A stretch of DNA of 37,621 nucleotides from an uncultured Eubacteriales bacterium (GTDB lineage: Bacteria > Bacillota > Clostridia > Christensenellales > Borkfalkiaceae), in the NCBI GenBank assembly GCA_902797945.1, contig CADBUU010000080.1, positions 1 through 37,621 of the forward strand, written 5' to 3'. Position 1 is the stretch's first letter; the number at the start of each line of letters is the position of its first letter. Position numbers and translations under genes: made by a program. Shown here in pieces: positions 260 through 35,208 of this stretch. The notes under the pieces are model-generated. The model did not search any database and was not told the DNA's origin. It worked only from the letters and a program-made list of their open reading frames with translations.

Positions 260-1828
260 ATGCCTTTTGAAACTGTATGGTCTAAAAAATTGAATAAAAT
301 AAAATGGTTAATGCCCATTTTCTTCGTTTTTTCGCTTTTGCTTCTTGTTATGGGAATAGTTTTAATCATGATAAGAGGTTTCGACGGAATGAGCAAAGAG
401 TTCGCTTTTACAATAGGAGCGGATCTCTTCGGAATGGCAGTCAGCGCAACGTTGATTTTCAGTTGCGTTATGTCGAGTCGAAACAGCGATGGGGCAAGCG
501 GATATACGAGAGTTTTCGTAACTCTGCTCGTGGTAAACGCAAATGCGATGTTTCTCGACGAATGTTGCTGGATAGTTCAAGGGATGCCGGAGTTTTCGAC
601 GTGGAATTTAATTATAAACGTCTTTTTTTTCATGAACAGCGCTATGGTAGTTTATATCTTTTGGAGATACGTTACCGACGTTCTCGATTTAGAAGGGACG
701 TTTATGGGCTTTTTAAATAACGTGATGAATTATTTATTGATTCCGGCGCTTATTGCCTGTGTGGTAAATTTTTTCTATCCGTTATACTTCAAAATAGATT
801 ATCAGACGGGAGAATATATAAGGTCGTCCGAGACGTGGATATTAAGCCAGATATATCTCGCCGCAGGCGTTATTTCGGCGGTTTTGGCGTTTATTTTTTC
901 CAAGGTCAATCTCAAAACCAAACTCGTCGCCGGCTCATTTGTGTCGATACCTTTACTTAATCAGATTCTTACCAGAGCGTCTTTCGGTATTTCCACGCAA
1001 TACGCAGCGACTTTGGTTTCCATAGTTTTAATCTACGGAATGTTATTTTCCGATAGGGAAAAGATACTCTCTACCACGGGAAAAGAACTCGCCCTTGCGA
1101 CGAGGATACAGTCGGATATGCTTCCAAATATTTTCCCGCCATTCCCCGAAAGGACGGAGATAGATATTTACGCTTCTATGAATCCTGCGAAGGAAGTAGG
1201 CGGAGATTTTTACGATTTCTTTCTTATCGACGACAATACGCTCGCAATAGTAATAGCCGACGTTTCGGGTAAAGGAATTCCTGCGGCATTATTTATGATG
1301 GTTTCAAAAATTCTCGTTCAGAACTACGCAATGATGAACGCTTCGCCCAAATCGGTATTAGAGTCTGTAAACCGTCAGATATGCGAAAATAACCACGCCG
1401 ATATGTTCGTTACCGTATGGCTTGGAATGCTCGATCTTACAACGGGGGTTCTGACTGCCGCAAACGCAGGACACGAATATCCCGTAATGAAGAAAAAAGG
1501 CGGGCAGTTCGAATACGTTATGGATAAACACGGTTTCGTTATCGGCGGTATGAAATCGCTTAAATATTCCGAATATCAACTTAAAATGGAACCGGGATCT
1601 AAATTATTCGTATATACCGACGGCGTTTTGGAGGCTACCAATAAATCGAGCGAACTGTTCGGCAAGGATAGGCTTTTGGAAGCTCTCGCAAAAGCGGAAA
1701 ATGACAATCCCGAAGAGGTTTTAAAGCGCGTCAGAGAGGAAATAGATGTTTTTGTGGGCGACGCTCCGCAATTCGATGATATAACAATGCTTTGCTTACA
1801 ATATAACGGTAAAGGAGAACAAAGATGA
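260..1828 (+). CDS. Membrane-bound PP2C/SpoIIE-family serine phosphatase (RsbU-like)
   Basis: A 522-residue protein. The N-terminal half (about residues 10-265) holds roughly eight hydrophobic segments. A short helical linker follows, containing RIQSDMLP, the usual entry to RsbU/SpoIIE phosphatase domains. The catalytic domain shows the metal-binding acidic motifs EVGGDFYDFF, IADVSGKG, a TDGVLEA segment and FDDITML. By family knowledge such enzymes dephosphorylate STAS anti-sigma antagonists, here presumably in response to a signal sensed in the membrane. The ATG at 260 is preferred over the upstream GTG at 245, because GGAG at 247-250 lies nine bases before 260 and falls inside the longer reading. 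The stop overlaps the start of the kinase gene (ATGA), so the two are translationally coupled. The sensor part resembles nothing I can name. Confidence 0.9.
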   Translation: MPFETVWSKKLNKIKWLMPIFFVFSLLLLVMGIVLIMIRGFDGMSKEFAFTIGADLFGMAVSATLIFSCVMSSRNSDGASGYTRVFVTLLVVNANAMFLDECCWIVQGMPEFSTWNLIINVFFFMNSAMVVYIFWRYVTDVLDLEGTFMGFLNNVMNYLLIPALIACVVNFFYPLYFKIDYQTGEYIRSSETWILSQIYLAAGVISAVLAFIFSKVNLKTKLVAGSFVSIPLLNQILTRASFGISTQYAATLVSIVLIYGMLFSDREKILSTTGKELALATRIQSDMLPNIFPPFPERTEIDIYASMNPAKEVGGDFYDFFLIDDNTLAIVIADVSGKGIPAALFMMVSKILVQNYAMMNASPKSVLESVNRQICENNHADMFVTVWLGMLDLTTGVLTAANAGHEYPVMKKKGGQFEYVMDKHGFVIGGMKSLKYSEYQLKMEPGSKLFVYTDGVLEATNKSSELFGKDRLLEALAKAENDNPEEVLKRVREEIDVFVGDAPQFDDITMLCLQYNGKGEQR

Positions 1829-2235
1829 GCAAAGAAATCACTGTAAACGCAACTCTCGACAATCTCGGAAAAGTAACCGAATTCGTAAACGGCGAACTTG
1901 AAAAACTCAATTGTCCCTTAAAAGCGCAGATGCAGATCGACGTCGCTATCGACGAACTTTTCGCAAATATCGCCAACTACGCTTATAATCCCGAAGTCGG
2001 CGAAGCGACCGTTTCGGTTAGGACCGAAGAAGATCCGCTCGCAGTCGTAATCACCTTTAAGGATAACGGAAAGCCTTACGATCCCCTTTCCAATGCCGAG
2101 CCCGATGTAAACGCGTCGGTCGAGGACAGAAAAATAGGCGGACTCGGGATTTTTATCGTCAAAAAAACTATGGACGATATAGTTTACGAATATAAAGACG
2201 GACAAAATATATTAAAAATAAAAAAGAATATGTAA
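1825..2235 (+). CDS. RsbW/SpoIIAB-type anti-sigma serine kinase
   Basis: A 136-residue single-domain GHKL ATPase. The N-box DVAIDELFANIANYAY, the G1 box DNGKPYDP and the G2 box GGLGIFIVKKTMD are all present. In this family the protein phosphorylates a STAS antagonist and sequesters a target, often a sigma factor. It overlaps the phosphatase gene by four bases and lies two genes before a protein with a STAS domain, so kinase, phosphatase and antagonist are encoded together. No sigma factor is nearby, so the final target is unknown: it could be a distant sigma factor or the neighbouring enzymes. Confidence 0.88.
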   Translation: MSKEITVNATLDNLGKVTEFVNGELEKLNCPLKAQMQIDVAIDELFANIANYAYNPEVGEATVSVRTEEDPLAVVITFKDNGKPYDPLSNAEPDVNASVEDRKIGGLGIFIVKKTMDDIVYEYKDGQNILKIKKNM

Positions 2236-2250
2236 TTAAAGGAACGCGCA

Positions 2251-2817
2251 ATGGATATTTTTGACAAGGCAATTATTTTCTCTGTAAACGCGCATTCGGG
2301 CATGGTCAGAAAGACTAAGACTACGCCGTATATCCTTCATCCGATGGAAGTCGCGACTATCGTCGGAACGATGACGAGCGACAGAGAAGTTCTTGCGGCG
2401 GCGATTTTACACGATACGGTAGAAGACACATCCGCAACGGCTGAGGAAATAAAAGAAAAATTCGGAGAGCGCATAGCGACGCTTGTCGCTTCGGAAACCG
2501 AGGATAAAAGAATAGAAATGGCGCCCGAAGACAGTTGGGAAATACGAAAAAAAGAATCGCTTGAAGTTCTCCGTAGAAGCGACGATATAAACGTAAAGAT
2601 ACTCTGGATGGGAGATAAACTCGCAAACGTAAGATCTTTTTATCGGGCATGGAGAGAAAAAGGAAACGACCTTTGGTTGGATTTTCATCAAAAAGACGCA
2701 TCGAAGCAGGCATGGTATTACAGAACCATCGCAGAGTTAACCATTGAACTCGACAACACCGACGCTTGGAAAGAATACAATAATTTAATAAATTTGATTT
2801 TTAAAGGAGTAAAATAA
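2251..2817 (+). CDS. SpoT/MESH1-like HD-domain phosphohydrolase
   Basis: A 188-residue stand-alone HD protein. The N-terminal third carries the (p)ppGpp-hydrolase pattern: H near residue 15, RKTKTTPYILHPMEVA, and the HD pair in AAILHDTVEDT, followed by an ExxxxFGxxIA segment. No synthetase, TGS or ACT domain follows, so it matches small alarmone hydrolases (MESH1 type) in length and layout. It lies 15 bp after the RsbW-like kinase and one base before the STAS-kinase gene, in the same orientation, so it is probably part of the same transcript. The substrate is inferred from family, and other pyrophosphate nucleotides are possible. Confidence 0.82.
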   Translation: MDIFDKAIIFSVNAHSGMVRKTKTTPYILHPMEVATIVGTMTSDREVLAAAILHDTVEDTSATAEEIKEKFGERIATLVASETEDKRIEMAPEDSWEIRKKESLEVLRRSDDINVKILWMGDKLANVRSFYRAWREKGNDLWLDFHQKDASKQAWYYRTIAELTIELDNTDAWKEYNNLINLIFKGVK

Positions 2818-2818
2818 T

Positions 2819-4003
2819 ATGAACGAAGTTAAGATGAATGTAGAAGGAAAAATCATTACGGTTTTTTTAAGCGGACGTATAGATTCGGCTAACGCTCCGA
2901 CCGCTGAAAAGGAAATAACCGATTTCCGTTCGAAAAATCCCGCAAATACGATAGTCGTGGATTGCGACAAACTCGAATATATTTCGAGCGCCGGATTGCG
3001 TATTATTCTCAGACTGAAAAAAGAAACTCCCGATACTACTCTTATAAATGTTAATCCGGACGTTTACGAGATATTCGATATGACCGGTTTTACCGAAATA
3101 ATGGATATAAAAAAAGCGTATAGAGTGATTTCTGTCGATGGGTGCGAAGTTATCGGTCAAGGCGCAAACGGTAAAGTTTACCGTATAGATAAAGATACTA
3201 TCGTAAAAGTTTACTTAAATCCCGACGCCCTTCCCGAAATACACAGAGAAAGAGAACTTGCGAGAACAGCGTTCGTCCTCGGTATTCCTACGGCTATTCC
3301 TTACGACGTCGTTCGTATAAGCGACGGGGGTTACGGCTCTGTATTCGAACTGTTGAACGCCAAAAGTTTTGCGAAACTTTTATCGAGCGGTGAAAAGAGT
3401 CTCGACGAAATCGCCGAAATGAGCGTTAAACTCTTAAAGACCATACATTCGACGGTAGTAAAGCCGGAAAGTATGCCCGATATGAAAGAAATAGGCGTAA
3501 ATTGGGTAAAATTCTTAAAGGACTATCTTCCGGAGGACAGTTACGCTAAACTTTATTCTTTCGTTACGGCTATTCCCGAAGACAATCATATGCTTCACGG
3601 AGATTATCACGTCAAAAACGTAATGCTCCAAAACGGCGAATGTCTGCTTATCGATATGGATACTCTTTGCCACGGGCATCCGGTATTTGAATTCGCAAGC
3701 ATATATAACGCCTACGTCGGATACAGCGATCTCGACCACGCTATGACCGAATCTTTCCTCGGGCTTAAAAGAGAGGTTACGGTAGAACTCTGGAATAAAA
3801 TACTTGCGCTCTATTTTAAAGGCGAAAGCGAAGAAAAAATCGCCGACGTCGCAAATAAGGCTATGGTAATCGGTTACGTTCGTAATATGAGGAGAACGAT
3901 TCGCAGAAACGGTTTCGATACCGAACAGGGCAGAGCGACCATTGAAAACTGCAAGAACAAAATTATCGATTTGTTATCTAAAATCGACAGCCTTATCTTT
4001 TGA
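2819..4003 (+). CDS. STAS anti-sigma antagonist domain fused to APH/choline-kinase-like phosphotransferase
   Basis: A 394-residue two-domain protein. Residues 1-105 are a STAS domain with the conserved ISSAGLR loop, in which S56 or S57 would be the site phosphorylated by an RsbW-type kinase. Residues about 110-390 are a kinase of the aminoglycoside/choline kinase fold: Gly-rich GQGANGKVYRI at 113-123, the ATP lysine in IVKVY near 130, catalytic HGDYHVKN at 260-267 and the metal-binding IDMD at 278-281. The key kinase residues are intact. The kinase part resembles the TIGR02172-type family, whose substrate I do not know. The fusion suggests that the partner switch regulates, or is read out by, a small-molecule kinase. 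It begins one base after the HD gene. Confidence 0.85.
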   Translation: MNEVKMNVEGKIITVFLSGRIDSANAPTAEKEITDFRSKNPANTIVVDCDKLEYISSAGLRIILRLKKETPDTTLINVNPDVYEIFDMTGFTEIMDIKKAYRVISVDGCEVIGQGANGKVYRIDKDTIVKVYLNPDALPEIHRERELARTAFVLGIPTAIPYDVVRISDGGYGSVFELLNAKSFAKLLSSGEKSLDEIAEMSVKLLKTIHSTVVKPESMPDMKEIGVNWVKFLKDYLPEDSYAKLYSFVTAIPEDNHMLHGDYHVKNVMLQNGECLLIDMDTLCHGHPVFEFASIYNAYVGYSDLDHAMTESFLGLKREVTVELWNKILALYFKGESEEKIADVANKAMVIGYVRNMRRTIRRNGFDTEQGRATIENCKNKIIDLLSKIDSLIF

Positions 4004-4033: not shown

Positions 4034-4915
4034 ATGAACTTGGGAGAGATATTTTTAGACAGTTTAATAGATTGCGCGAAGATGCTTCCACTCATTTTTC
4101 TCACTTATATTATTATCGAGATAATTGAGAGAAAGGCGGACTTTGCAAAACACGGCAAATTTCTCGAAGGGAAATTTGCGCCTCTCCTCGGTTCGCTTGC
4201 CGGGGTTTTTCCGCAATGCGGAGTAAGCGTAATGTCGGCGAAACTGCTCGAAAAGGGGCTTATAGGCGCAGGAACGCTTTTAAGCGTCTTTATCGCGACT
4301 TCCGACGAGGCTTTTTCCATACTTATCGCAAGCGATAAAAGGATGGATATTCTTCCCCTCATGGGGATAAAAATACTCCTCGCCGTAGTCATAGGTTATG
4401 CGGTAAACGCCTTGGTTAAAAAGCGTATAGTTTACGATAAAGGCGATACGTTCGGACACGAAGAGGTGTGCGCCCATTGTCACGACCACGTTCACGCCGA
4501 AGGTAAATATTCATGGATATCGAAATATATCCTCATCCCTTTACTACACGCTTTTCAAACCTTTTTATACGTCTTTGTCGTAACGTTCGTGTTCGGAATA
4601 TTTTTCGGAGAAGAAGGACTTATCGGCGAGGAAAAATTTACGGAGTTTTTATCCGTTTCAAAATATTTCGGACCTTTCGTTTCTTCGCTTATAGGGCTTA
4701 TACCCAACTGCGCGTCGTCAGCCGTCATAACGTCCGCCTACGTTAACGGAGCGATATCTTTCGGCTCAATGTTTGCGGGGCTCGTCTCCAACGCAGGAGT
4801 GGGACTTGCGGTATTATTTAAAAATACGGCGAAAATAAAAAGGAATTTACTTATTTTATTAGCCCTTTATCTTATCGGTTCCGTATCCGGACTTATTATC
4901 AATCTTGTTATCTAA
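4034..4915 (+). CDS. ArsP_2-family putative heavy-metal/manganese exporter
   Basis: A 293-residue membrane protein with about eight to ten hydrophobic segments in two blocks, separated by a cytoplasmic or surface loop near residues 137-155 (CAHCHDHVHAEGK) rich in His and Cys. The two halves share a motif of the type FPQCGVSVMSAKL (first half) and IPNCASSAVITSAY (second half), an internal repeat typical of the ArsP_2 (10TM putative heavy-metal exporter) family. The His/Cys loop is a plausible metal-binding sensor. The gene starts 30 bp after the STAS-kinase gene in the same direction and may be co-transcribed, though no strong ribosome site is visible. The metal is not determined by the sequence. 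Confidence 0.75.
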   Translation: MNLGEIFLDSLIDCAKMLPLIFLTYIIIEIIERKADFAKHGKFLEGKFAPLLGSLAGVFPQCGVSVMSAKLLEKGLIGAGTLLSVFIATSDEAFSILIASDKRMDILPLMGIKILLAVVIGYAVNALVKKRIVYDKGDTFGHEEVCAHCHDHVHAEGKYSWISKYILIPLLHAFQTFLYVFVVTFVFGIFFGEEGLIGEEKFTEFLSVSKYFGPFVSSLIGLIPNCASSAVITSAYVNGAISFGSMFAGLVSNAGVGLAVLFKNTAKIKRNLLILLALYLIGSVSGLIINLVI

Positions 4916-4940: not shown

Positions 4941-6290
4941 ATGACTGCCGAAGAAAAATTCAATTATCTTACTTGCGGCAACGTAAAAAAACTTATATTG
5001 AAATTTGCGGCCCCGACGGTGCTTACGATGCTCGTAACCACCTTTTACAATATGGCAGACGCATTTTTTGTCGGAATGATAAATCCGAGCGCCTCGGGCG
5101 CCGTAAGCGTTATATTTTCGTTTATGGCGATTATTCAGGCGTGCGGATTTTTTTTCGGGCACGGCTCGGGTAATTATATTTCGAGAAAACTCGGAGAGGG
5201 CAACAGGGAAGAAGCTGAAAAAATGGCGGTTACGGGATTTACGTTATCCCTTCTTTTCGGGGCTTTAATATCAGTCGTCGGACTTATATCTATAGATGGT
5301 TTGGCGACGATACTCGGTTCAACGTCGACTATCAAGCCTTATGCGATAGAATATCTCAGGTTTATCCTTATCGGCGCTCCGTATATGACCGCCGCTTTAA
5401 CTTTGAACAATCAACTTCGTTTTCAAGGTAGCGCAATATACGCTATGATAGGAATGTGTTCGGGTGGAATTATAAACGTCGGTCTCGACGCTTGGTTTAT
5501 ATCCGGACTTCAAATGGGGACGTCGGGAGCCGGACTTGCGACGGCAATAAGCCAACTATGTTCTTTTCTTTTATTGCTTTTGGGAACGCTGAGAGGGGGA
5601 AATATAAGGCTTAATTTTAAAAAATTATCGTTGAAAGGCTTTTATTTCGGAGAAATAACGAGGGGAGGGCTTCCCTCTCTCGGAAGGCAAGGAATATCCG
5701 CTTTGGCGGTTACTTTTTTAAATCACGCTTGTTCTTTGGTCGTTTCTCCTTCCGACGAACTTATTGCGGCAATGGGGATCGTGGCGAAAGTGACGGGGTT
5801 CTTTTCTTCGGCGATAATCGGCTTCGGTCAAGGCTTTCAACCAATTTGCGGATTTAATTACGGGGCAAAAAAATACGATAGGGTTAGGGAAGGATTTTAT
5901 TTCAGCGTGACGGTAACTACGATTTTTGCGGCATTGTCGGGGCTTTTCGGAACGATTTTCGCCGATAAAATAATTTTTATTTTTACCGATAGTCAAAAAG
6001 TCGTAGAATTCGGAAGGTTGGCAATGATTGCGCAATGTTCGGTGTTTTTTCTTACCAGTTTTATAACTATTTTAAATATGCTTTTGCAAAATATCGGAAA
6101 AGTCGTCCCGGCGACTTTATTGTCGGTTGCAAGACAGGGACTGTTTTTTATTCCCATACTTGCCGTCTTTTCCGCTCTGTTCGGTGTGACGGGGCTATCT
6201 ATCGCTCAAGCGTGTTCCGACGTCCTTACGTTTATAATAGCCGTATTTATTCTTATCAAAACTTTATCAAACTCTTTACGAAGAAGATAA
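4941..6290 (+). CDS. MATE-family multidrug/cation exporter
   Basis: A 449-residue integral membrane protein with about twelve hydrophobic segments in two homologous halves, the normal length and plan of MatE transporters. Typical pieces are the N-terminal KLILKFAAPTVLTMLV stretch, PSASGAVSVIFSFMAI, and the second-half QGISALAVTFLNHA and GFGQGFQPICGFNYGA. It is expected to export cationic drugs or metabolites by Na+ or H+ antiport, but the substrate cannot be read from sequence. AGGTGAG at 4932-4938 precedes the start. The gap to the metal exporter is only 25 bp, suggesting an exporter pair on one transcript. Confidence 0.9.
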   Translation: MTAEEKFNYLTCGNVKKLILKFAAPTVLTMLVTTFYNMADAFFVGMINPSASGAVSVIFSFMAIIQACGFFFGHGSGNYISRKLGEGNREEAEKMAVTGFTLSLLFGALISVVGLISIDGLATILGSTSTIKPYAIEYLRFILIGAPYMTAALTLNNQLRFQGSAIYAMIGMCSGGIINVGLDAWFISGLQMGTSGAGLATAISQLCSFLLLLLGTLRGGNIRLNFKKLSLKGFYFGEITRGGLPSLGRQGISALAVTFLNHACSLVVSPSDELIAAMGIVAKVTGFFSSAIIGFGQGFQPICGFNYGAKKYDRVREGFYFSVTVTTIFAALSGLFGTIFADKIIFIFTDSQKVVEFGRLAMIAQCSVFFLTSFITILNMLLQNIGKVVPATLLSVARQGLFFIPILAVFSALFGVTGLSIAQACSDVLTFIIAVFILIKTLSNSLRRR

Positions 6291-6934: not shown

Positions 6935-8530
6935 ATGAAGAGCAAGAAGTTATTGACTTTGATATCGGCGCTTACGGCTGCGACCGTTGCCGTCGGATCA
7001 TATACTGCCGTCGCGTTTGCGGACGACGAGGGAAACGTTACGCAACCTTCCGTTTCATACGGACTTCGTTACGAAAACGGAACTACCGAGAAAGCCGCCT
7101 ACGCCAATCCCTTTGATTATATCGTTCAATACGAGGACGGCGAAGAAGTTGCTTTCGACGCGGAAATAAGCGATTTCAGCGTTTGGTCGGGTAACGACGA
7201 AGTTCCCGAAACGGCTTATGATTTCAATAAAGAAAATCTTACCGTAGAATATTATATTACCGACGACTTTTCCGAACAGGGAATAGAATACGTCGTGAAG
7301 GTTACCGTCGACGGGGAAGTTTACGAGACTAACGTAAACGTTGCGTTGCACGCCCCGGAAAATTCGCTCTATTACGATTTTGACGACGAAAAATTGGAAG
7401 CGGCGAAACATGCGGTTGAAGAGGCTACGGACAACCTTGACGGGAAAACTTCCCTTTCGCTTACTTCAACCGAAGTTACCGAAGCCCTTTGGAATCTCGT
7501 CAAGTCGGAAGTATTTGCGAGAAAGGACCTTAAAATATCCCTTTACGTCGTTACTCCCGGTTCCGGACTTCCTACGTCCGCGACTTCGACTAATACTATC
7601 AGCCTTAGCGCGAGCGGTGAATACAGATTCTGGGTTTTATATCAAGACGCCGAACGCGGCGAATACAACAACAATATGACGACCGACGACCTCGTTTTCC
7701 GCAAAGTAGGAGACGATTATGGTTGGTATGACGCTACCGGAAAACTCGTCGTTCCCGTTTTCTCTTTTAATTTCGTTGCCGAGACCGAGCCGAAAGTAAC
7801 TCCTTCGGGCGGCGGAGAAAGAGGAATACTCAACTATAAATATAACGACGTGACGTTTGCCGTTGAAAACGGAACGGTCGAAAGCATCGAACTTTTCTAT
7901 CGTGCGAGCGAAACCGACGAATGGGCAAAGGCAACCGAGGACGAGGCAACTTTCGACGCCGAAACCTTTACTTCCTCTTCGATCAACTTTACTCCCGTAA
8001 AAAAAGGTGAATTTAAAGTCGTTTGCACCGCAATCGGAACAAAGAACGATACGAGAGTTAAAGGCGAAACTACTGTAAAAGTAAACAGAGAATACGAAGT
8101 TGCCGAACTCGTAGATTTAAGAGTTCAACAATTTTTCCAGAATAACTGGCAATCGCTTATATTCCTCGGAATTGCGGTATTGTGTCTTATCGGAATTATC
8201 GTTATAGCATTCTATAAGCCTAAGGACGCTACCGCTAAAAAAGAAAAGACGGTAGTCGAAGAAGAAAAGACTACGGAAGCGGAAGAGATAACCGAAACCG
8301 AGTCGACGGAAGCAGAAACTACGGAAGAGGTTGCAGAAGCGGATAACGAAACTGCCGAAGAACTTACGGAAGAAGTTACCGAAGCGGATAGCGAGACCGC
8401 CGAAGAAACGAATGAAGCGGCTACCGAAGAGACTGCCGAGGTTCAAACCGAAACTACTGCCGAAGAGGCTCCCGTTGAAGAAAAAGCCGAAGAAGTTAAA
8501 GAAGAAGCCGAAGGCGAAAAAACCGAATGA
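6935..8530 (+). CDS. Secreted, membrane-anchored protein with acidic C-terminal tail, unknown function
   Basis: A 531-residue protein of unknown function. Residues 1-30 are a signal peptide (MKSKKLLTL, hydrophobic core, cut near VAFA-DD). Residues about 30-400 would be extracellular and rich in Asp, Thr and Tyr, with beta-type segments suggestive of two or three Ig-like modules. Residues about 404-425 form a transmembrane helix (FLGIAVLCLIGIIVIAF), followed by YKPK and a roughly 105-residue tail of Glu, Thr and Ala with loose repeats such as TEEVAEAD and TEEVTEAD. If the helix is a stop-transfer anchor, the acidic tail is cytoplasmic. AGGAG at 6923-6927 precedes the start, a strong promoter lies upstream, and an intrinsic terminator follows, so this is a single-gene unit. 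No catalytic motif is visible. Confidence 0.8.
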   Translation: MKSKKLLTLISALTAATVAVGSYTAVAFADDEGNVTQPSVSYGLRYENGTTEKAAYANPFDYIVQYEDGEEVAFDAEISDFSVWSGNDEVPETAYDFNKENLTVEYYITDDFSEQGIEYVVKVTVDGEVYETNVNVALHAPENSLYYDFDDEKLEAAKHAVEEATDNLDGKTSLSLTSTEVTEALWNLVKSEVFARKDLKISLYVVTPGSGLPTSATSTNTISLSASGEYRFWVLYQDAERGEYNNNMTTDDLVFRKVGDDYGWYDATGKLVVPVFSFNFVAETEPKVTPSGGGERGILNYKYNDVTFAVENGTVESIELFYRASETDEWAKATEDEATFDAETFTSSSINFTPVKKGEFKVVCTAIGTKNDTRVKGETTVKVNREYEVAELVDLRVQQFFQNNWQSLIFLGIAVLCLIGIIVIAFYKPKDATAKKEKTVVEEEKTTEAEEITETESTEAETTEEVAEADNETAEELTEEVTEADSETAEETNEAATEETAEVQTETTAEEAPVEEKAEEVKEEAEGEKTE

Positions 8531-10250: not shown

Positions 10251-11162
10251 ATGATAGAAGATAAAGAAACCGACGAATTGAACGAAGAAGTTCCTCTTGA
10301 AAATTCCGAAGAGGAAATCGAAGATATTTTAATGGAAGAAGGCAGTCTTGACGGCGACGAAAGCGAAGTAAACGAACTTGCAGAAGAAAAATCCGACGAG
10401 GAACAATCGGACGGGCAGGAGGAAACGGACGAAACGACGGAAACTCCCGTAGGTGAAATAACCGAAGGAAGTGAGGAAAATTCCGTCGGAAACACGGAAA
10501 CAATTTCCGACTCTCTTTCAATGCAGACTGCTACGACCGAAAAGGATACGGAGGAAGTAAAAGAAGACAAACCCGAGGCGTTTAAGTTGACTGCGCCTGA
10601 AAATCTCGATGAGATAATGTCGGGGATATGTATGAAGAGGGGCAGAAAACTCATCTATCGTCCGAACGAAGCAATTTTCGAACTTTCGACGACGGTTTTG
10701 GGAACGGATAAGAGCAACGAAGAAAAAATAAAGATAAAAAATATTTTAGACGCAGAGATAAAACAAGGCGTGAAACTCGGTTATCTGGATAAGTTCGACG
10801 GTTTAAAGACGAGCGAACTTAAAGAGGAATACGAAAACGACGTCGTATACGAATTTGCGGAACAGGAATTCAAGAGAACGGGGCTTTTCTACGACGGCAA
10901 AAAGGTAAAGGTCTACGTTTTCGATTGGGATATGAAGGCTTGTCATCACGTCGGCTACGTTTCCGACGAGAGCGCCGAACAACTTATTCCCTACCTTATG
11001 GATAAAGAAAAATACAGTTTTGACGTCAGCGGTATTATTACGGGCGGAAAATTCAAAAAATTCATCAAGGACGAGGAAAGCGGTAAGATAACGATCGAAA
11101 AGGGCAACGACGGAAAGTTGGGCATAGAACTCGACGTAACCGTATTGAACAGAAAAGATTAA
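10251..11162 (+). CDS. Acidic protein with disordered N-terminus, unknown function
   Basis: A 303-residue soluble protein. Residues 1-120 are low-complexity and very acidic (Glu, Asp, Thr, Ser) and should be disordered. Residues about 125-303 are an ordinary mixed domain starting NLDEIMSGICMKRGRKLIYRP. No signal peptide or membrane helix is seen. The segment KVYVFDWDMKACHHVGYVSDESAEQLIPYL faintly recalls the end of HIRAN domains, which bind DNA ends, but this is weak. It has its own promoter and stands alone between bioY and a convergent two-component system. It shares the Glu/Thr-rich composition of the tail of the surface protein at 6935-8530, but not its anchor. Confidence 0.7.
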   Translation: MIEDKETDELNEEVPLENSEEEIEDILMEEGSLDGDESEVNELAEEKSDEEQSDGQEETDETTETPVGEITEGSEENSVGNTETISDSLSMQTATTEKDTEEVKEDKPEAFKLTAPENLDEIMSGICMKRGRKLIYRPNEAIFELSTTVLGTDKSNEEKIKIKNILDAEIKQGVKLGYLDKFDGLKTSELKEEYENDVVYEFAEQEFKRTGLFYDGKKVKVYVFDWDMKACHHVGYVSDESAEQLIPYLMDKEKYSFDVSGIITGGKFKKFIKDEESGKITIEKGNDGKLGIELDVTVLNRKD

Positions 11163-16370: not shown

Positions 16371-17033
16371 ATGAAAGTATTTGCTTGGTTAGGCGTAATT
16401 ATTTTTGCTCTTTGCTCTCTCATATCTTGTGTTTCAACGCCCGTTTCGTCGGGAATGGAAACGCTTACGGTCGTAATAGACGCCGGACACGGCGGTATCG
16501 ACGGAGGCGTTTCGGGCGTCAATACGTCGGTCAAAGAAAGCGACTTAAATCTTGAAATATCCAAAAAATTAAAATCATATTTTTTAAGCGGAGGATTTAA
16601 CGTCGTTATGACGAGGGAAACTTCCGCAGGGCTTTACGGCGGGCTATCAAAGGGGTTTAAAATGAGGGATATGGAAAAGCGAAGGGATATTATAAACGGA
16701 GCCAACGCCGACCTTATGATCTCAGTTCATCTCAATTTTTATTCCTCTCCCGAAAGGCGGGGCGCGCAGGTTTTTTTCAGGCAGGATGACCAAAATTCCG
16801 AAGAACTCGCAAGGTATATCCAAAAACAACTCAATTTTACGGAAAGAGAGTATTCTCCGCTTATGGGAGATTATTACGTCTTAAATCAAACGAATTGCCT
16901 TGCCGTATTATGCGAGTGCGGTTTTTTGTCCAATCCCGACGACGAGAGATTGCTTTTGACCGAAGAATACAGAGATAAAATAGCGTATAGGATATATAAA
17001 GGGTGCATTATGTATATGCTCGAAGGGGCGTAA
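16371..17033 (+). CDS. N-acetylmuramoyl-L-alanine amidase (Amidase_3, CwlD-like)
   Basis: A 220-residue protein. The N-terminus is a signal anchor or lipoprotein signal ending in the lipobox-like LISC at 17-20. The catalytic domain shows VVIDAGHGGIDGG (zinc His), a Glu in the VKESDLNLEISKKL segment, the second zinc His in LMISVHLNFY, and the catalytic Glu in VLCECGFLSNPDDE. It cleaves the amide bond between muramic acid and the stem peptide. Size and layout match CwlD, which in spore formers helps make muramic lactam in the spore cortex, but a vegetative wall role is possible. No strong ribosome site is seen. The helicase gene follows 14 bp downstream. Confidence 0.9.
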   Translation: MKVFAWLGVIIFALCSLISCVSTPVSSGMETLTVVIDAGHGGIDGGVSGVNTSVKESDLNLEISKKLKSYFLSGGFNVVMTRETSAGLYGGLSKGFKMRDMEKRRDIINGANADLMISVHLNFYSSPERRGAQVFFRQDDQNSEELARYIQKQLNFTEREYSPLMGDYYVLNQTNCLAVLCECGFLSNPDDERLLLTEEYRDKIAYRIYKGCIMYMLEGA

Positions 17034-17047
17034 AGCGAGAGGTAAAA

Positions 17048-19648
17048 ATGTATACCGAAAGACAAAGAGAAACCATTGAAAATTTTTCCGACAATATTCT
17101 TCTTTTCGCAAGGGCGGGCGCCGGTAAGACGTTTACCGTCGCGAATAAGATTGCCGAAGGGATAAAAAGAGGAATAAAACCCGAGGAAATATTGTGTCTT
17201 ACGTTTACCGTCAAAGCGGCGGACGAAATTAAATCCGCAGTCGAAAAAATATGCGGCGAAATAGACGCTAACATTTCGACTATTCACGGTTTTTGCTATA
17301 AAATCGTCAGAAATTTCGCAAAACAAAGCGGCGTTTTCAGAGAACCGAGCGTCGCCGACGAAATAGATTGCGGAAGCGTAATCAAAGATTGTTTGAAATA
17401 TTTCGCAGACAAAAGCGACGAATATAAAATTTCGGAAGATGGAAGCATTTTACCCGAAAAACAACTCGTTAAAATAGTTTCCGAACTCAAACACATAAGA
17501 AAAGAGATAGGTTTCGGTTGGTTTGACGAAGGGGGTTACGGACAAGCCTTTAAATTTGCATCGAAAAATTACCACGATTTTATCTCGCTCTTTTCGGTAA
17601 GAAAATTTTCGGTCAAAATTACGGATTACGATTTGTTTGAATTTTTAAAAGTTCACGCCGACGAATTTATGAAAGAATACGAGAGAATATTGCGTTCGTC
17701 AGACCTATTCGACTACGACGACCTTATCTTTTGCGCAAGTTCCGTATTGGATAGGCAAGACTTAAAGAAATCGCCCTATAAGTTGATTATCGTTGACGAA
17801 ATGCAAGATACGAGCATGGCCGAATACGAAGTTATGAGAAAACTTTTCAATAAAGCGCAAGTGGTAATGTGCGGCGACGAATACCAGACGATTTACGCTT
17901 GGAGAGGCTCTTCCCCTACCGAAATAATAAAAGATTTTAAAAAGAATTATTCCGCCGTTACCATAACTCTCGACGGCAACAGGCGTTCTTCGGGGACGCT
18001 CGTTTACGCCGGAAACTATTATCTTTATAGGGCGTTTGGATATAAAAAGCCGAATGACCGACCTATAGAGGGGGATTTGCCCATAGAAATAGCGGAATGT
18101 GGCGGAGATACGGACGAGGCTGAGGTGATTTTTAAGGAATTGTCAGAGTTTAACGGCGAGCCCGACGAGATATGCGTTATGGCGAGGTCAAATTCATATC
18201 TCGCAAGGCTTTGTCAGAAACTTGAAAATATAAATTCGAGATTGCCGGAAGAAAAAAGGCTCGGCTTTTTTACTGCCGATAAAGATTATCAGTTTTATAA
18301 AAAGAAGATAGTAAAGACTTTTTTAGCTTATTTAAGGCTTTTGGTAAACCCCAACGATTTACCCTCTTTCGAGAGAGTCGTTCTGTCTTCCGTTTTCGGC
18401 GTCGGAAGAGCGACACTCTCGGCTTTCAGAGATTACGCCGTAACGGGCGCTTCGCTCGATTGTTTTTTAAGAAAAAGCGCATACGAATACGGCGATAATT
18501 ATCAACCCCTTCTTAACGCATATAAAGATGGGAAAGTCGTCGTCTACGACCTCGAAACGACGGGGCTCGACGTAAATAAAGATGATTTTATACAGATTTC
18601 GGCGATAAAAATCGGCAAAGAAGGAATAAAAGGGCAACTCAATATATTCGTCGTTCCGACCGTTCCTATTTCCGCAGAAGCGGAAAAAACTCACGGCTAC
18701 GGGCTTAAAGAAATAATTGAAAACGGCGGAGTCGACGTAAAAAAAGCGTTGACGGATTTTGCGGATTTTTCAAAAGATTGCGTTTTGATCGGGCATAACT
18801 CGGCGTCTTTCGACGACGTCGTTTTAAGGCGAATTTCAAAAAAAGAAGGGATAGAACTTTCAATCGTAGATAATTACGATACCCTTAAAATCGCGAGCGA
18901 TTATCGCCCCGACCTTAAAAATCGTAAACTTTCCACTTTGTGCGAAGAATTCGGAATAGTCAACGAAAGGGCTCACGACGCTTTTTCCGACGTATCGGCA
19001 ACCGTCGGGGTTTTAAGGCGTTTTATCGAAGAATATATTATTCCTACCAAAAAAGCGAGAGAAGGCGAGATTTTAAGACATCGGGATAAATTCAGAGATT
19101 TCTTTTACAATTACGAAAAATTAAAGAACTACGTTGAAATTAAAGACGTAAAGGGGCTGATGGTCTATATCGGGAAAAATATGGGAGTTCTCGATAAGGC
19201 GGGAGATCAAGAGAGGATTTCCGCTAACGATTTATACAGGTCTTTAAAATTCTTTTTCGACGGGTATGAGGACGGGTTTTGCGCTCTGAGAGAATTCGTT
19301 TCGGCTACCGCAATGTCGGGAAGTCAGATGGATATAATGATAAAGCGATTGAGGAAAATACCTCTTATAACCGTTCATCAATCTAAGGGGTGCGAGTTCG
19401 ACGAGGTTATAATCGCAGGTGCCGACGAAAACGAATTCCCATCTTACGGAGCGAGACTGAGCGGAAACGAAGAGGAAGAAAAAAGAGTTTTTTACGTCGC
19501 TTTAACGAGGGCGAAGAAAAAACTCGTAATAACTTATTCGGCTAAAAAGACGTTCGGACAGAATTCTTACGAGCGAAAGCCTTCTCCCTATCTCGATTAT
19601 CTCCCGTCGGACGCCGTAGACAATATAAAATTTTATACCGAGGAATAA
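17048..19648 (+). CDS. UvrD/PcrA-type superfamily 1 helicase with embedded DnaQ-like 3'-5' exonuclease
   Basis: An 866-residue protein. Helicase motifs: Walker A ARAGAGKTF (21-29), Ia LTFTVKAADE (51-60), II LIIVDEMQDTS (246-256), III MCGDEYQTIYAWRG (274-287) and IV GNRRSSGTL. Between these and the C-terminal motifs lies a complete DEDDh exonuclease domain at about 495-662: VVYDLETTGL (D501, E503), IGHNSASFDD (D589) and HDAFSD (H643, D648). Helicase motifs V and VI then resume: TVHQSKGCEFDEVIIAG (775-791) and RVFYVALTRAKKKL. All key residues of both activities are intact, so it should unwind and trim DNA. The ATG at 17048 follows GAGAGG and ends the longer 17003 reading. Roles in repair or plasmid/phage restriction are inference. 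Confidence 0.9.
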   Translation: MYTERQRETIENFSDNILLFARAGAGKTFTVANKIAEGIKRGIKPEEILCLTFTVKAADEIKSAVEKICGEIDANISTIHGFCYKIVRNFAKQSGVFREPSVADEIDCGSVIKDCLKYFADKSDEYKISEDGSILPEKQLVKIVSELKHIRKEIGFGWFDEGGYGQAFKFASKNYHDFISLFSVRKFSVKITDYDLFEFLKVHADEFMKEYERILRSSDLFDYDDLIFCASSVLDRQDLKKSPYKLIIVDEMQDTSMAEYEVMRKLFNKAQVVMCGDEYQTIYAWRGSSPTEIIKDFKKNYSAVTITLDGNRRSSGTLVYAGNYYLYRAFGYKKPNDRPIEGDLPIEIAECGGDTDEAEVIFKELSEFNGEPDEICVMARSNSYLARLCQKLENINSRLPEEKRLGFFTADKDYQFYKKKIVKTFLAYLRLLVNPNDLPSFERVVLSSVFGVGRATLSAFRDYAVTGASLDCFLRKSAYEYGDNYQPLLNAYKDGKVVVYDLETTGLDVNKDDFIQISAIKIGKEGIKGQLNIFVVPTVPISAEAEKTHGYGLKEIIENGGVDVKKALTDFADFSKDCVLIGHNSASFDDVVLRRISKKEGIELSIVDNYDTLKIASDYRPDLKNRKLSTLCEEFGIVNERAHDAFSDVSATVGVLRRFIEEYIIPTKKAREGEILRHRDKFRDFFYNYEKLKNYVEIKDVKGLMVYIGKNMGVLDKAGDQERISANDLYRSLKFFFDGYEDGFCALREFVSATAMSGSQMDIMIKRLRKIPLITVHQSKGCEFDEVIIAGADENEFPSYGARLSGNEEEEKRVFYVALTRAKKKLVITYSAKKTFGQNSYERKPSPYLDYLPSDAVDNIKFYTEE

Positions 19649-25892: not shown

Positions 25893-26927
25893 TTAGTCGA
25901 CGCTCAGTTTAAGAGTAAATTCGCTCCCTTTTCCGACTTCGCTGTCTACCGATATTTCTCCTCCGATTTTTTCTGTGATTTTTTTGACGAGCGCAAGACC
26001 TAATCCGTTTCCTTCAGTGGAACGAGAGGAGTCGCCCTGATAAAACTTATCGAAAACGTGTTTTTTTATCTCTTCGTCGATGCCGATACCCGAATCTTTT
26101 ACGGCTATTATCGCTTTATTTCCTTCTTGTTTAAGCGTTACCGATATATATCCTTTTTCGGTAAATTTTATTGCGTTGGATAAAAGGTTGTTTACCGCGA
26201 TCTCGACGTAAGAAGGATTTCCCGTAAGTGAAATTTCGTCTATGGAACATAATAGGTCGAGTCCTTTTTTTTCAATAATATCCTCAAATGATAAAACGCA
26301 GTTCCGAACGAGTTCCGAAAGGACGAACAGAGTTTTTTCGTCGTTTATTTCGCCGTGTTCGAGCTTGTTGAGTTTAAGCACGTTTGAAACGAGGTCGGAT
26401 AATCTTTTAGAGGCGGAAACGAGTATTTCGACGTATTCTTTTCTCGTTTTCTCGTCGATTTTTTCGCTCGTTAGCATTGTGGCGTAGTTCTGTATTACCG
26501 AAAGAGGATTTTTTATTTCGTGAGATACGTTGGAAACGAAATCGCTTTTAAGTATTTCATTTTGTGACAGTTCCTTTGCCATAAGGTTGATATTTTGCAT
26601 TATCACGTCGTATCTGTCGTATTTATCTATCCTGTGAACGGGCGTGAGCCTGACGTTAAAATCTCCCGACGCTATCCGTTCGGTTGCTTTAAGAATTTGC
26701 TCGGTTGGACGTGAAACCATAATTTTTCTGCGTAAAATGTCTATAAAAACGCAAACCAAAGTCCCGAAAATGACGTTTCCGAGCATACACGCCGCAATCG
26801 AAGGAATGCTTTGTCCTTGGTTTTGAAGAGTGGCGTAGATGAAAACGGAACTCGTCGTTACTCCTGCTATAACTAAAAAAAATCCTATAAAACCCCAAAG
26901 AGTAAAGCCGACGTCGTGTTTTTTCAT
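25893..26927 (-). CDS. Intramembrane-sensing-type histidine kinase
   Basis: A 344-residue kinase. Two membrane helices near 10-35 and 38-62 have only a short loop between them, so a large external sensor is absent. A HAMP region (ERIASGDFNVRL) leads to the H-box FVSNVSHEIKNPLSVIQNYA, the N-box VNNLLSNAIKFTEKG, the G1 box DSGIGIDEEI, the F-box FYQGDSSRS and the G2 box GNGLGLALVKKI. Such kinases beside ABC transporters often sense through the transporter. The start overlaps the regulator stop (ATGA), and the gene is last in a six-gene operon read from 31102. Confidence 0.93.
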   Translation of the reverse strand: MKKHDVGFTLWGFIGFFLVIAGVTTSSVFIYATLQNQGQSIPSIAACMLGNVIFGTLVCVFIDILRRKIMVSRPTEQILKATERIASGDFNVRLTPVHRIDKYDRYDVIMQNINLMAKELSQNEILKSDFVSNVSHEIKNPLSVIQNYATMLTSEKIDEKTRKEYVEILVSASKRLSDLVSNVLKLNKLEHGEINDEKTLFVLSELVRNCVLSFEDIIEKKGLDLLCSIDEISLTGNPSYVEIAVNNLLSNAIKFTEKGYISVTLKQEGNKAIIAVKDSGIGIDEEIKKHVFDKFYQGDSSRSTEGNGLGLALVKKITEKIGGEISVDSEVGKGSEFTLKLSVD

Positions 26928-27595
26928 TTAAGCACCGCCTTATATCCGAGACCGTGAACGGTCAATATTTCAAAACCGTCGCAACTCTGCGTTTTTTCGC
27001 GAAGTTTGGAAAGATACATATCGACCGAACGAGAACTTGCCGACGAGTCGTAATCCCAAAATTCATTCATAAGTTGCGAGCGAGTAAAAGTTCGCTTCGG
27101 AAAAGATAAAAATTTATACAAAAGGTCGAATTCCCTTACCGTCATTTCGACTTCCTCGCCGTTTATATACGCCGTATGTTCGTCCTTGTCGAGAATAAGG
27201 TTCCCGACCGTAAGTTTTTTATTGGCGTTTATATTCGCTCGCCTTAATATAGCGGAAATCTTAAAATATAATTCCTCTAAGTCAAAAGGTTTTACGACGT
27301 AATCGTCTATGCCGAGCCTGTAACCGAGAGACTTCGAAAACTTGTCGTCGCGAGCGGTGACGAATAAAATCGGGATAAGTTTATTGATTTTTCTGATTTG
27401 TTCCGCAAGCGAAAATCCGTCCGTTACGGGCATCATAACATCTGAGATGATCATATCGAATTTTTCGCTTTCGAAAAGCGAAAACGCTTCGCTTCCGTTG
27501 TAGCAAGAAGTTAACGAATATCCTTTATCGGAAAGATAATCGCGCATTACTTTATTCAGGTCTTTATCGTCTTCCACTATGAGAATTTTTTCCAT
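26924..27595 (-). CDS. OmpR-family response regulator
   Basis: A 223-residue regulator. The receiver domain shows ILIVEDDKD, the phosphoacceptor Asp in ISDVMMPVTDG and the Lys in VVKPFDLEEL. The winged helix ends in MYLSKLREKTQSCDGFEILTVHGLGYKAV. The ATG at 27595 has AGGTG six bases upstream. The GTG at 27604 is part of that site. It overlaps its kinase by four bases and follows two ABC ATPase/permease pairs. It has its own internal promoter and probably binds the 11-bp-period repeat at 31163-31182. Confidence 0.93.
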   Translation of the reverse strand: MEKILIVEDDKDLNKVMRDYLSDKGYSLTSCYNGSEAFSLFESEKFDMIISDVMMPVTDGFSLAEQIRKINKLIPILFVTARDDKFSKSLGYRLGIDDYVVKPFDLEELYFKISAILRRANINANKKLTVGNLILDKDEHTAYINGEEVEMTVREFDLLYKFLSFPKRTFTRSQLMNEFWDYDSSASSRSVDMYLSKLREKTQSCDGFEILTVHGLGYKAVLK

Positions 27596-27613
27596 TTCGT
27601 TCACCTTTTTATA

Positions 27614-27642
27614 ATTTTAACAAATAGAGGTAAAAAAGTAAA
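27614..27642 (-). promoter_or_regulatory. Internal promoter of the second two-component pair
   Basis: On the minus strand, TTTACT (27642-27637), 17 bp, TAAAAT (27619-27614) with TG in place (TGTTAAAAT). The start near 27607 leaves about 12 nt before the ATG, with AGGTG at the very 5' end. Confidence 0.6.
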
Positions 27643-27649
27643 GCGACTG

Positions 27650-27681
27650 AAACGACCGCCGAAAGATTTCGTCGGTCGTTT
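27650..27681 (-). terminator. Hairpin between the ABC genes and the response regulator
   Basis: AAACGACCG (27650-27658) pairs with CGGTCGTTT (27673-27681), with a further CGAA/TTCG helix inside. On the minus strand it follows the second permease and is followed by T-rich sequence, though not an immediate T run. It is probably a partial terminator that separates transporter from regulator levels. Confidence 0.5.
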
Positions 27682-27693
27682 AAGTCTTTGTCG

Positions 27694-28458
27694 TCAGACT
27701 ATATCCGTGTGGTCGAGGATAAATTTACTGCTCAATCCGCCGCAGAATGCGAATATTATACCGCCTGCAAGACAGAGAAATAAATTTATTATACCCGAGT
27801 TTAATGGAGTCATCATAGGTATCGTCGGAAATAGAAGCGCGCTTAAAGCGAGAGAACCGAGTATCGAAAGCCAGGTCTTTTGCTTTGCGAAAACGCTTAT
27901 CAAAAGGTCTATTGACGAAAAAAGAGGAAGAAGGGCTATTTTGGAAAGCATACAAAAAATCAATCCGGTTACGCTTGTGTTGGTAAGTTCGAAGGAAAGT
28001 CCCGCTATTTTGCCGCCGACTATCGCTCCCAAAAAATAAGCGATGAAAGTAAGAGCTCCCGAAAACGAAAGAAGCAGGATTTTGGATAGGACGTATTCTC
28101 CCTTTTTATGTCTTATGGCGAATATGTTTTTGGCGTAGCCGCTTTTGAATTCCTCCGACACGAAGATTCCTACGAGAACGGACGTAAGAAAAAACAAAAG
28201 GTTGATATTCATCATCGACGTAATATCCATCGCCGTTGCGCCTTCTTCGCTTACTGACGATATCGATTGCCAGACGGAAGTAAATATTAAAGTAGACTCT
28301 TCTCCTCCGTTTAGCGTCGTCATTACGAGAATTAGGACGGGGAGGGAGAAAGAAACGCCGATTAAAACGTATAATAGGGGAGAGGCGAAGAGCCTTAAAA
28401 AATCTACTGAAAGCATACTTTTGAGTTTTTTCGGCTTAGTTCTGTCGTATTTTACCAT
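27694..28458 (-). CDS. ABC-2-type permease, second pair
   Basis: A 254-residue protein with about six hydrophobic segments. After a charged start it reads MLSVDFLRLFASPLLYVLIGVSF, very like the first permease (MLGVDFYRLLHTPVFYIFLAISA), and shares EFKSGYAKNIF with the other's DYRSGYVKQLF. It is the membrane half of an exporter of the BcrB/lantibiotic-immunity kind, working with the ATPase whose gene it overlaps by 7 bp. The substrate is unknown. Antimicrobial peptide or bacitracin resistance is the usual role of such operons. Confidence 0.82.
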   Translation of the reverse strand: MVKYDRTKPKKLKSMLSVDFLRLFASPLLYVLIGVSFSLPVLILVMTTLNGGEESTLIFTSVWQSISSVSEEGATAMDITSMMNINLLFFLTSVLVGIFVSEEFKSGYAKNIFAIRHKKGEYVLSKILLLSFSGALTFIAYFLGAIVGGKIAGLSFELTNTSVTGLIFCMLSKIALLPLFSSIDLLISVFAKQKTWLSILGSLALSALLFPTIPMMTPLNSGIINLFLCLAGGIIFAFCGGLSSKFILDHTDIV

Positions 28459-29360
28459 ATTTCATTTTCTCCTTTTTTCATAAGGTCGATATAATATTCT
28501 TCGAGAGAAATTTTTTCTGTCGTAACTTCCTCGACCTTGATTCCGTGTTTAAAAAGATAATTAACCGTTTCTTCGGGGCTTGCGTCGCCGTATATGCGCA
28601 AGAAATTATCTTTTCGGGTTACTTTTATGTATTTTTCCGAAAGTAAATTTTCAGCCGAATTTAAATCGAGAGGTTTTATGGCGACGTATTTCGGACACTC
28701 TCTTTCGAGTTCTTCCGCAGTTACTTGCTTTATCATTTTGCCTCGTCTTATTATTCCGTAGTGAGTGGCTATTTTTTCGAGTTCTCCCAAAATGTGAGAG
28801 GAAATAATTACCGAACATTTCTTTTTTAGTGTTAAGTCGGTAAGGACTTCTCTCATTATTCTTATTCCGTCTGCGTCAAGCCCGTTTATGGGTTCGTCGA
28901 GAATAAGAAGGGCAGGGTTTCCGAGAAGAGCCATTGCTATTCCTACTCTCTGTTTCATTCCGAGAGAACAATTGCGGAATTTGTTGGAAGCGGAACCTTC
29001 CATTCTGACGAGTTTTAACGCTTCGGCGACTTTTTCTTTTGGATTTCTAAGCGAAATATTCGCCGCCTGTATCATCATATTTTGCCATACGCTTAAATTC
29101 GGGAAACACCCCGGCGTTTCTATAAGACAGCCGATTTTATGGCGGACATCCTCGTCGGAAAGGTCTTTTCCGAATAACTTTATTTGTCCGTTGTTTGGGC
29201 GCATAAGACCGCATATTATTTTTTCGGTCGTCGATTTGCCGCTTCCGTTTTCTCCGATAAAGCCGTAGATCGCGCCTTCGGGAACTACCATATCAAGACC
29301 TGAAACGGCTTTTTTTTGCCCGAAAAATTTACTTAAATTGTGTATTTCAACCGCATTCAT
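28452..29360 (-). CDS. ABC transporter ATPase, second pair (BcrA-like)
   Basis: A 302-residue ATPase: Walker A FIGENGSGKSTTEK, a Q-loop region LIETPGCFP, signature CSLGMKQRVGIAMALLG, Walker B LLILDEPINGLD and the switch His in ISSHILGELEKIATHYG. The C-terminal extension of about 80 residues ending in LEEYYIDLM is typical of BcrA/NatA-type ATPases. It is a close paralogue of the ATPase at 30197-31102, with whole motif blocks identical, so the ATPase/permease pair was duplicated in tandem. It follows the first permease by 10 bp. Confidence 0.93.
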   Translation of the reverse strand: MNAVEIHNLSKFFGQKKAVSGLDMVVPEGAIYGFIGENGSGKSTTEKIICGLMRPNNGQIKLFGKDLSDEDVRHKIGCLIETPGCFPNLSVWQNMMIQAANISLRNPKEKVAEALKLVRMEGSASNKFRNCSLGMKQRVGIAMALLGNPALLILDEPINGLDADGIRIMREVLTDLTLKKKCSVIISSHILGELEKIATHYGIIRRGKMIKQVTAEELERECPKYVAIKPLDLNSAENLLSEKYIKVTRKDNFLRIYGDASPEETVNYLFKHGIKVEEVTTEKISLEEYYIDLMKKGENEIW

Positions 29361-29370
29361 AATAGTCTCC

Positions 29371-30195
29371 TTAATAAACGTCGCTTTTCGATAATATTAC
29401 TGAACCTAAAAAGGCGTAGAAAATAAACCATACTATAGATACGATAGCGCCGCTAAAAAACGCTGTGACGGAACTTCCGAGACAGGCGTATACCGACGAG
29501 CCGTATAAAAACAAGTTTAACAGCGAAGAATTTCCGACTATCGCCGCCGCCCCTATTACGGGTATTCCCGTTCCGATAAAGAAAGACAAGGCTATCGCTA
29601 TGCCGAAATGCTTTCTTAATATTACGTTGATAAACGTATAAAGTCCCGCCCAGCCGAGCGAAAGGATCATTTTCGATAATATCGAAATTAGCAAAGACGA
29701 AACGTTAACTTCGAACGACGTTCCCGACAAAATTCCGGAGAATACCGTTCCTATAATGTAAGTAACGCACATACAAGTCATTGAAAATGCGCCCGTAAGC
29801 GATTTTGAAAGCATATAGTCCTGTTTTTGGGGGTGAGTGGTAAAAAGTTGTTTGACGTAACCGCTTCTGTAATCGTGTCCTATAAATATTGAAATCATTA
29901 TTCCGCCGAATATAAACACCATATTCATATTTGCATAATCGGCTATGTCGTTCACGACGTATAAAGGTTGTTTTGCCGCTATCATCTGCCACGTTTCGGT
30001 GTAAAGAGGTTTAGCGATTTCTCCTTCCTGAGACATTCCCGTCATCGATAAAACCATTGCCGGAATTATCGCCGATATTGCAAGAAAAATATAAAAGACG
30101 GGAGTGTGCAAAAGTCTGTAAAAATCAACTCCGAGCATCCTTTTTAGCCTTTCGATAAAAGAGGGTTTGTCAAATATTATCTGATTTTGGTCCAT
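29371..30195 (-). CDS. ABC-2-type permease, first pair
   Basis: A 274-residue membrane protein with about six hydrophobic segments and a soluble N-terminal lead of about 20 residues. It is related to the permease at 27694-28458 along its length but more diverged than the ATPases are from each other, suggesting that the permeases have adapted to different substrates or now form a heterodimer. It begins one base after the ATPase stop. Confidence 0.82.
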   Translation of the reverse strand: MDQNQIIFDKPSFIERLKRMLGVDFYRLLHTPVFYIFLAISAIIPAMVLSMTGMSQEGEIAKPLYTETWQMIAAKQPLYVVNDIADYANMNMVFIFGGIMISIFIGHDYRSGYVKQLFTTHPQKQDYMLSKSLTGAFSMTCMCVTYIIGTVFSGILSGTSFEVNVSSLLISILSKMILSLGWAGLYTFINVILRKHFGIAIALSFFIGTGIPVIGAAAIVGNSSLLNLFLYGSSVYACLGSSVTAFFSGAIVSIVWFIFYAFLGSVILSKSDVY

Positions 30196-30196
30196 A

Positions 30197-33298: not shown

Positions 33299-33299
33299 A

Positions 33300-35207: not shown

Positions 35208-35208
35208 G

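Follow-up and report, generated by a model that had tools for sequence, protein, structure and literature searches.

What does a partner switch control when no sigma factor is encoded beside it? This question is raised by four adjoining forward-strand genes at positions 260 to 4003 of a 37,621-nucleotide stretch of DNA from an uncultured Eubacteriales bacterium (contig CADBUU010000080.1), which was analysed whole and is called the window below. The genes encode a membrane PP2C phosphatase, an RsbW-type kinase, an HD hydrolase and a protein, STAS-APH, in which a STAS domain is fused to a kinase domain of the APH/choline-kinase fold. A reading made from the letters alone (the sequence-only reading) had suggested that the genes make up a partner switch in which the STAS protein is itself joined to an enzyme and no sigma factor takes part. 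That outline is kept here and has gained gene order, fusions, co-occurrence and the absence of SigB as support. The best explanation, which we consider probable, is that the four genes form a partner switch that works independently of sigma factors and has an enzyme as its output.

That phosphatase, RsbW, STAS-APH and HD are one system is best supported by protein fusions, which join RsbW to PP2C or to STAS-APH, and HD to STAS-APH. These were found in a set of 113 non-redundant loci, comprising 80 that were kept from 146 STAS-APH loci in a scan of public genomes and further loci from genomes of the same order, with genes called homology-first. Here, the RsbW domain forms the C-terminus of PP2C in 41 loci, is free in 25 and is attached C-terminally to STAS-APH in 15. 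No locus combines PP2C-RsbW with STAS-APH-RsbW, and a single locus (L066) has PP2C-RsbW plus a free RsbW. In L131 (544-2136), Pfam places STAS, APH and HATPase_c_2 in a single protein of 530 amino acids, and in L195 one protein of 580 amino acids contains HD, STAS and APH. Six further STAS-APH-RsbW proteins came from a survey of the class, and any PP2C present there lacks RsbW. On a quick maximum-likelihood tree of STAS-APH, many branches of which are weak, RsbW shifts position at least 15 times.

Further support comes from gene order and co-occurrence. The sequence-only reading had proposed a search for the four-gene order across Clostridia; RsbW domain, HD and STAS-APH follow one another in this order in more than 20 named loci, and the objection that the order is not conserved among relatives is itself contradicted. 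Within 4 kb of STAS-APH, an RsbW-type domain is present in 80 of the 113 loci and PP2C in 59. In a comparison of 41 related genomes, clade members of both RsbW and PP2C are found in 10 of 10 with STAS-APH versus 1 of 31 without (G019; p 1e-8 each, a weak PP2C match of 29% identity in G024 being left uncounted), and in 391 genomes sampled evenly across the class this RsbW is found in 19 of 20 with STAS-APH versus 35 of 371 without (p 4e-17), these p values taking no account of kinship among genomes. In addition, all 18 genomes picked for a STAS-APH without a nearby RsbW encode RsbW elsewhere. Thus, STAS-APH is nearly always accompanied by RsbW, but RsbW is also found without STAS-APH. Chance adjacency is rejected by the p values of gene association and co-occurrence. 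Judged from genome sequences, the module is widespread in gut and rumen Clostridia; among cultured hosts, Coprococcus catus VPIC661 (L092) has HD, STAS-APH and STAS. The relatives of the source genome are among rumen Clostridia, the closest STAS-APH being that of L033, with 96% identity.

The four genes lie where the sequence-only reading had placed them, with the same overlap and gaps, and this is borne out by gene calls, Pfam, NCBIfam and active-site conservation. The PP2C gene (260..1828, +) most likely starts at the ATG at 260, with GGAG ten bases upstream, in a frame that is open from a GTG at 245. Its product matches Pfam SpoIIE (2e-52), with a SpoIIE/RsbU-type catalytic domain at residues 324-515 and approximately seven hydrophobic segments in the N-terminus, as judged by hydropathy. 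The sensor parts differ among relatives, being dCache plus HAMP, a Reg_prop propeller or membrane segments only, which suggests that inputs are swapped and the output is kept. Overlapping this gene by 4 bp is that of the RsbW/SpoIIAB-type GHKL serine kinase (1825..2235, +). The protein matches Pfam HATPase_c_2 (6e-22), the N box and G boxes are present, and residues E44, N48, D80, G82 and G105-G108 are invariant in 12 relatives. A 15-bp gap separates it from the stand-alone HD hydrolase gene (2251..2817, +), which is followed after 1 bp by STAS-APH (2819-4003).

The STAS domain of STAS-APH (residues 1-104; 2819..3130, +) matches Pfam STAS (3e-15) and, above the cut-off, NCBIfam ant_ant_sig (TIGR00377), and its best solved relatives are SpoIIAA/RsbV. 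Across 81 STAS-APH sequences, the predicted phosphosite S57 is invariant and S56 is at least 90% conserved. The APH domain (residues 105-394; 3131..4003, +) matches Pfam APH (4e-14) and has intact HxDxxxxN and (I)DxD motifs. In the same sequences, G113 and G115 of the glycine-rich loop, K130, E144, H260, D262, N267 and D279 are invariant; as all of the catalytic residues are kept, a role as a scaffold only is not expected. The AlphaFold model of this domain has a pLDDT of 93.5, and its Foldseek matches are APH(2''), methylthioribose kinases and choline kinases, with aminoglycoside kinases ranking first. Its best NCBIfam match is the APH-like family TIGR02172 (1.5e-28), at 100.2 bits versus a curated cut-off of 228. 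The kinase is therefore outside this family by score and differs from it in the STAS domain fused N-terminally. TIGR02172 is not mentioned in any paper found in a search of the open-licence literature in PubMed Central (PMC).

How would such a switch work? By analogy with SpoIIAA/AB and RsbV/W, we infer that RsbW and PP2C act on the STAS domain in opposite directions. A membrane signal would be received by PP2C; the RsbW-type kinase would phosphorylate STAS-APH in its STAS domain, most likely at S57, and PP2C would take the phosphate off. The unphosphorylated STAS domain would be the docking partner of RsbW, and docking and phosphorylation would alter the activity or location of the attached APH kinase, with no sigma factor being freed. 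Because STAS is joined covalently to APH, and in some proteins to RsbW as well, direct modulation of an enzyme by the STAS protein is likely. As the partner is an enzyme, the outcome would most simply be a change in kinase activity or location; how APH activity is regulated and on which kind of substrate it acts, we infer only. A variant of this explanation, whose probability overlaps with that of the explanation itself, is that STAS-APH serves RsbW as a tether, by which the switch brings the kinase to the membrane-bound PP2C and leaves its activity unchanged. The RsbW-PP2C fusions in 41 loci are consistent with this. However, in the 15 loci where RsbW is fused to STAS-APH, docking cannot move the kinase relative to RsbW, and these proteins favour a change in activity because docking can be intramolecular. 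Tethering has some chance of being correct, although we think it doubtful.

The preferred explanation, an enzyme as the output of the switch, also assigns the HD hydrolase, or PHP in other lineages, to the pathway in which the kinase works, where it would probably act on a phosphorylated nucleotide-like metabolite. The HD protein is of the small alarmone hydrolase (RelH/MESH1-like) type, with 188 amino acids and a single HD domain without a synthetase domain (Pfam HD_4, 1e-22; best NCBIfam match spoT_relA, 8e-24). Its metal and base-pocket residues (R20, H30, H54, D55, E58, D59, D122, N126 and R128) are invariant in 24 relatives, and we take these to be the hydrolase residues of SpoT/MESH1. 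The AlphaFold model (pLDDT 94.5) is matched by Foldseek to RelH of Corynebacterium glutamicum (7qoc, TM 0.88), followed by Lmo0812 and MESH1. The protein therefore resembles the small alarmone hydrolases (C. glutamicum RelH, Listeria Lmo0812, XccSAH and MESH1) in fold, length, catalytic residues and lack of a synthetase, and differs from them in being encoded within a partner-switch operon and in being fused once to STAS-APH.

Beside STAS-APH, on the same strand and within 300 bp, HD is found in 54 of the 113 loci, PHP in 17, neither in 42 and both in none. Ten more loci from the class survey obey this HD-or-PHP rule, and on the STAS-APH tree there are at least five changes between the two. 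The best match of the PHP proteins is 3',5'-nucleoside bisphosphate phosphatase, well below the cut-off. A third common hydrolase type was searched for in the loci without HD or PHP, and none was found. Two unrelated ribose-phosphate-removing enzymes alternating beside one kinase would most simply be explained if they undo or feed the kinase reaction on a ribose-phosphate metabolite. Among the small alarmone hydrolases, XccSAH can take 2' or 3' ribose phosphates off alarmones and NADPH (PMC9765508), and MESH1 also dephosphorylates CoA (PMC13221220). Because some relatives take NADPH or CoA, and because PHP replaces HD elsewhere, (p)ppGpp is just one candidate substrate of HD. A speculative extension, which we offer tentatively and think doubtful, is that APH adds a 2' or 3' ribose phosphate to a nucleotide or cofactor and HD or PHP removes it. 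The result would be a membrane-signalled, reversible mark, and the switch would belong to a larger family of partner switches in gut Clostridia that do without sigma factors and have MATE transporters, GH3 enzymes and HAD hydrolases as their other outputs.

The APH domain could instead be a protein kinase or an antibiotic-type kinase, with HD unrelated in purpose. The APH fold includes protein kinases (SrkA/YihE), and the lead of aminoglycoside kinases in the Foldseek ranking points the same way. However, HD or PHP adjoins STAS-APH in 71 of the 113 loci, never both, and the HD-STAS-APH fusion occurs once, which ties the hydrolase to the kinase. Plasmid and phage records, where resistance genes would be expected, contain no match. 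The readings as an antibiotic-resistance cassette or a mobile element were rejected. We regard this alternative as unlikely.

Could a sigma factor nevertheless be the target? Sigma factors were searched for using the host genome's own as probes, with 4 kb as the neighbourhood. The sequence-only reading had noted that none is nearby, and the gene list of the window indeed contains none. No SigB/F-type sigma gene lies within 4 kb of the 113 loci. A sigma gene of any type is found at this distance in only two, SigK in L190 and ECF in L109, and neither is a type that is known to be targeted by RsbW-class anti-sigma factors. The host genome, a 1.55-Mb draft that is 92.7% complete, encodes two SpoIIE-type phosphatases (the locus PP2C and SpoIIE), two RsbW-type kinases (the locus RsbW and SpoIIAB, two extra matches being histidine kinases in the window) and two STAS proteins (STAS-APH and SpoIIAA). 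Its sigma factors are SigA, SigE, SigF, SigK, SigH, a truncated SigG frame and one ECF. The SigG frame (L122, G000:C93, 1459-1893) breaks approximately 100 residues into the SigG match, which is either an assembly error or a true loss. SigF is encoded in a normal spoIIAA-spoIIAB-sigF operon and has its own SpoIIAA/AB/SpoIIE set. A genome-wide search found no SigB in the draft, in whose missing part the gene may fall.

As SpoIIAA is the only other STAS protein in this inventory, STAS-APH is the sole STAS protein left for the locus RsbW, and no SigB is available to it. Of the components of the RsbU-RsbW-RsbV-SigB module, the PP2C, the RsbW and the STAS protein with its serine are present and the cognate SigB/F-type sigma factor is absent. 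In 15 genomes that have the RsbW core and lack STAS-APH, there is again no neighbouring sigma gene, and MATE-RsbW or GH3 genes are sometimes found. A conventional sigma switch, with its sigma factor elsewhere in the genome and APH as either an additional output or a scaffold carried by the anti-anti-sigma factor, is the least probable alternative, and a sigma factor as sole target is unlikely: the PP2C, RsbW and STAS families classically control sigma factors, sigma genes need not adjoin their switch, and HsbR-HsbA of Pseudomonas aeruginosa has been linked both to the enzyme HsbD (PMC5085249) and to RpoS (PMC6482189), but the host lacks SigB and its SigF is provided with its own partners, SigK and ECF alone occur near the loci, the fusions join RsbW to an enzyme, and the core without STAS-APH is likewise free of adjoining sigma genes.

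Several points weigh against an enzyme as the output. A separate small STAS protein is encoded within 4 kb in 44 of the 113 loci, and there STAS-APH may not be the sole substrate of RsbW. The occurrence of RsbW without STAS-APH in the class sample suggests that the core of the switch predates the STAS-APH output and is more widespread. One draft genome of that sample (G619) has STAS-APH, and RsbW was not detected in it. In addition, the statistic for HD/PHP exclusivity is weakened by the relatedness of the loci, and RsbW may have some other target, or a sigma factor encoded elsewhere in the genome.

Partner switches with an enzyme as output are known; the version proposed here, with an APH kinase as output, would be new. 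The proposed switch resembles SpoIIE/SpoIIAB/SpoIIAA-SigF and RsbU/RsbW/RsbV-SigB of Bacillus in its PP2C, GHKL kinase and STAS domain with a conserved serine, encoded by adjoining genes. It differs from them in having no sigma factor at the locus and no SigB, in the fusion of STAS to a kinase, in the link to HD or PHP and in the frequent presence of RsbW on PP2C or STAS-APH. With SiaABCD and HsbRA-HsbD of P. aeruginosa and BgrSTUWV-BgrR of Sinorhizobium meliloti it would share direct control of an enzyme by a STAS or STAS-like protein. SiaABCD, HsbA-HsbD and BgrV-BgrR act on diguanylate cyclases (PMC8457831, PMC5085249), which are separate proteins, whereas here the output would be a fused APH-fold kinase with an adjoining nucleotide-type hydrolase. 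Pfam finds no GGDEF domain in the four switch proteins or the next two genes. A fusion of STAS to a glycosyltransferase, all4160, was noted earlier (PMC8256260). In the open-licence PMC literature that was searched, neither the STAS-APH module nor the RsbW-MATE fusions were found to have been described.

Downstream of the switch, an ArsP_2-type permease gene (4034-4915, +) follows STAS-APH after 30 bp and a MATE transporter gene (4941-6290, +) comes 25 bp later. These are probably the downstream part of the same transcript and are not claimed as members of the switch. A MATE gene also lies 3' of STAS-APH in the sister genome G013 (L138).

Other proteins encoded beside the switches also carry partner-switch domains. 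MATE transporters with a C-terminal HATPase_c_2 domain occur in L038 (2718-4475), L055 (7625-9379), L222 (8595-10367), L229 (5658-7415) and L248 (3665-5359). Such MATE-RsbW proteins are found within 4 kb of 11 of the 113 loci and also in genomes without STAS-APH, and partner-switch control of a transporter is possible. L072 (13466-15508) encodes a GH3-family enzyme with a C-terminal STAS domain, and GH3 without STAS is found in the switch clusters of L097, L243 and L248. A fusion of STAS to a Cof-type HAD hydrolase lies just 5' of RsbW, HD and STAS-APH in L068 (5069-6193), and an unfused hydrolase of this type follows STAS-APH in L034. In L215 (6167-10415), distant STAS-APH proteins (approximately 42% identity) are in tandem with Y_phosphatase3-type phosphatases, another phosphatase beside the STAS-APH kinase. 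Sodium:dicarboxylate (SDF) symporters beside switches in L041 (1148-2767) and L067 (5869-7488) have an N-terminal domain that is weakly RsbW-like (hhalign probability 88); it lacks the N and G boxes and was rejected as an RsbW.

Elsewhere in the window, proteins with long acidic, Glu-rich stretches are encoded at 6935-8530 and 10251-11162, the first without a Pfam match. In a UvrD-like helicase (17003-19648), the C-terminal helicase region is interrupted midway by an RNase_T/DEDD exonuclease domain. Two ABC pairs at 25893-31102, lantibiotic-protection-like (TIGR03740, below cut-off), lie beside a two-component system. A LeuA/homocitrate-synthase-like enzyme, a GntR regulator, aconitase and an isocitrate-dehydrogenase-like gene stand in a row at 31275-36363 and look, by eye, like a Re-citrate-synthase pathway operon.

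Sets of RsbW, STAS and PP2C are usually read as sigma regulators, and here they appear to drive an enzyme directly. Many genes annotated as 'anti-sigma' in gut bacteria may therefore have no sigma factor. STAS-APH-RsbW provides a one-polypeptide system for how partner switches control enzymes, and the module points to a metabolite that is handled by an APH-type kinase together with a MESH1-like or PHP hydrolase. If the speculated ribose-phosphate mark is true, it would amount to a signalling or cofactor cycle that is new and distinct from (p)ppGpp and c-di-GMP.

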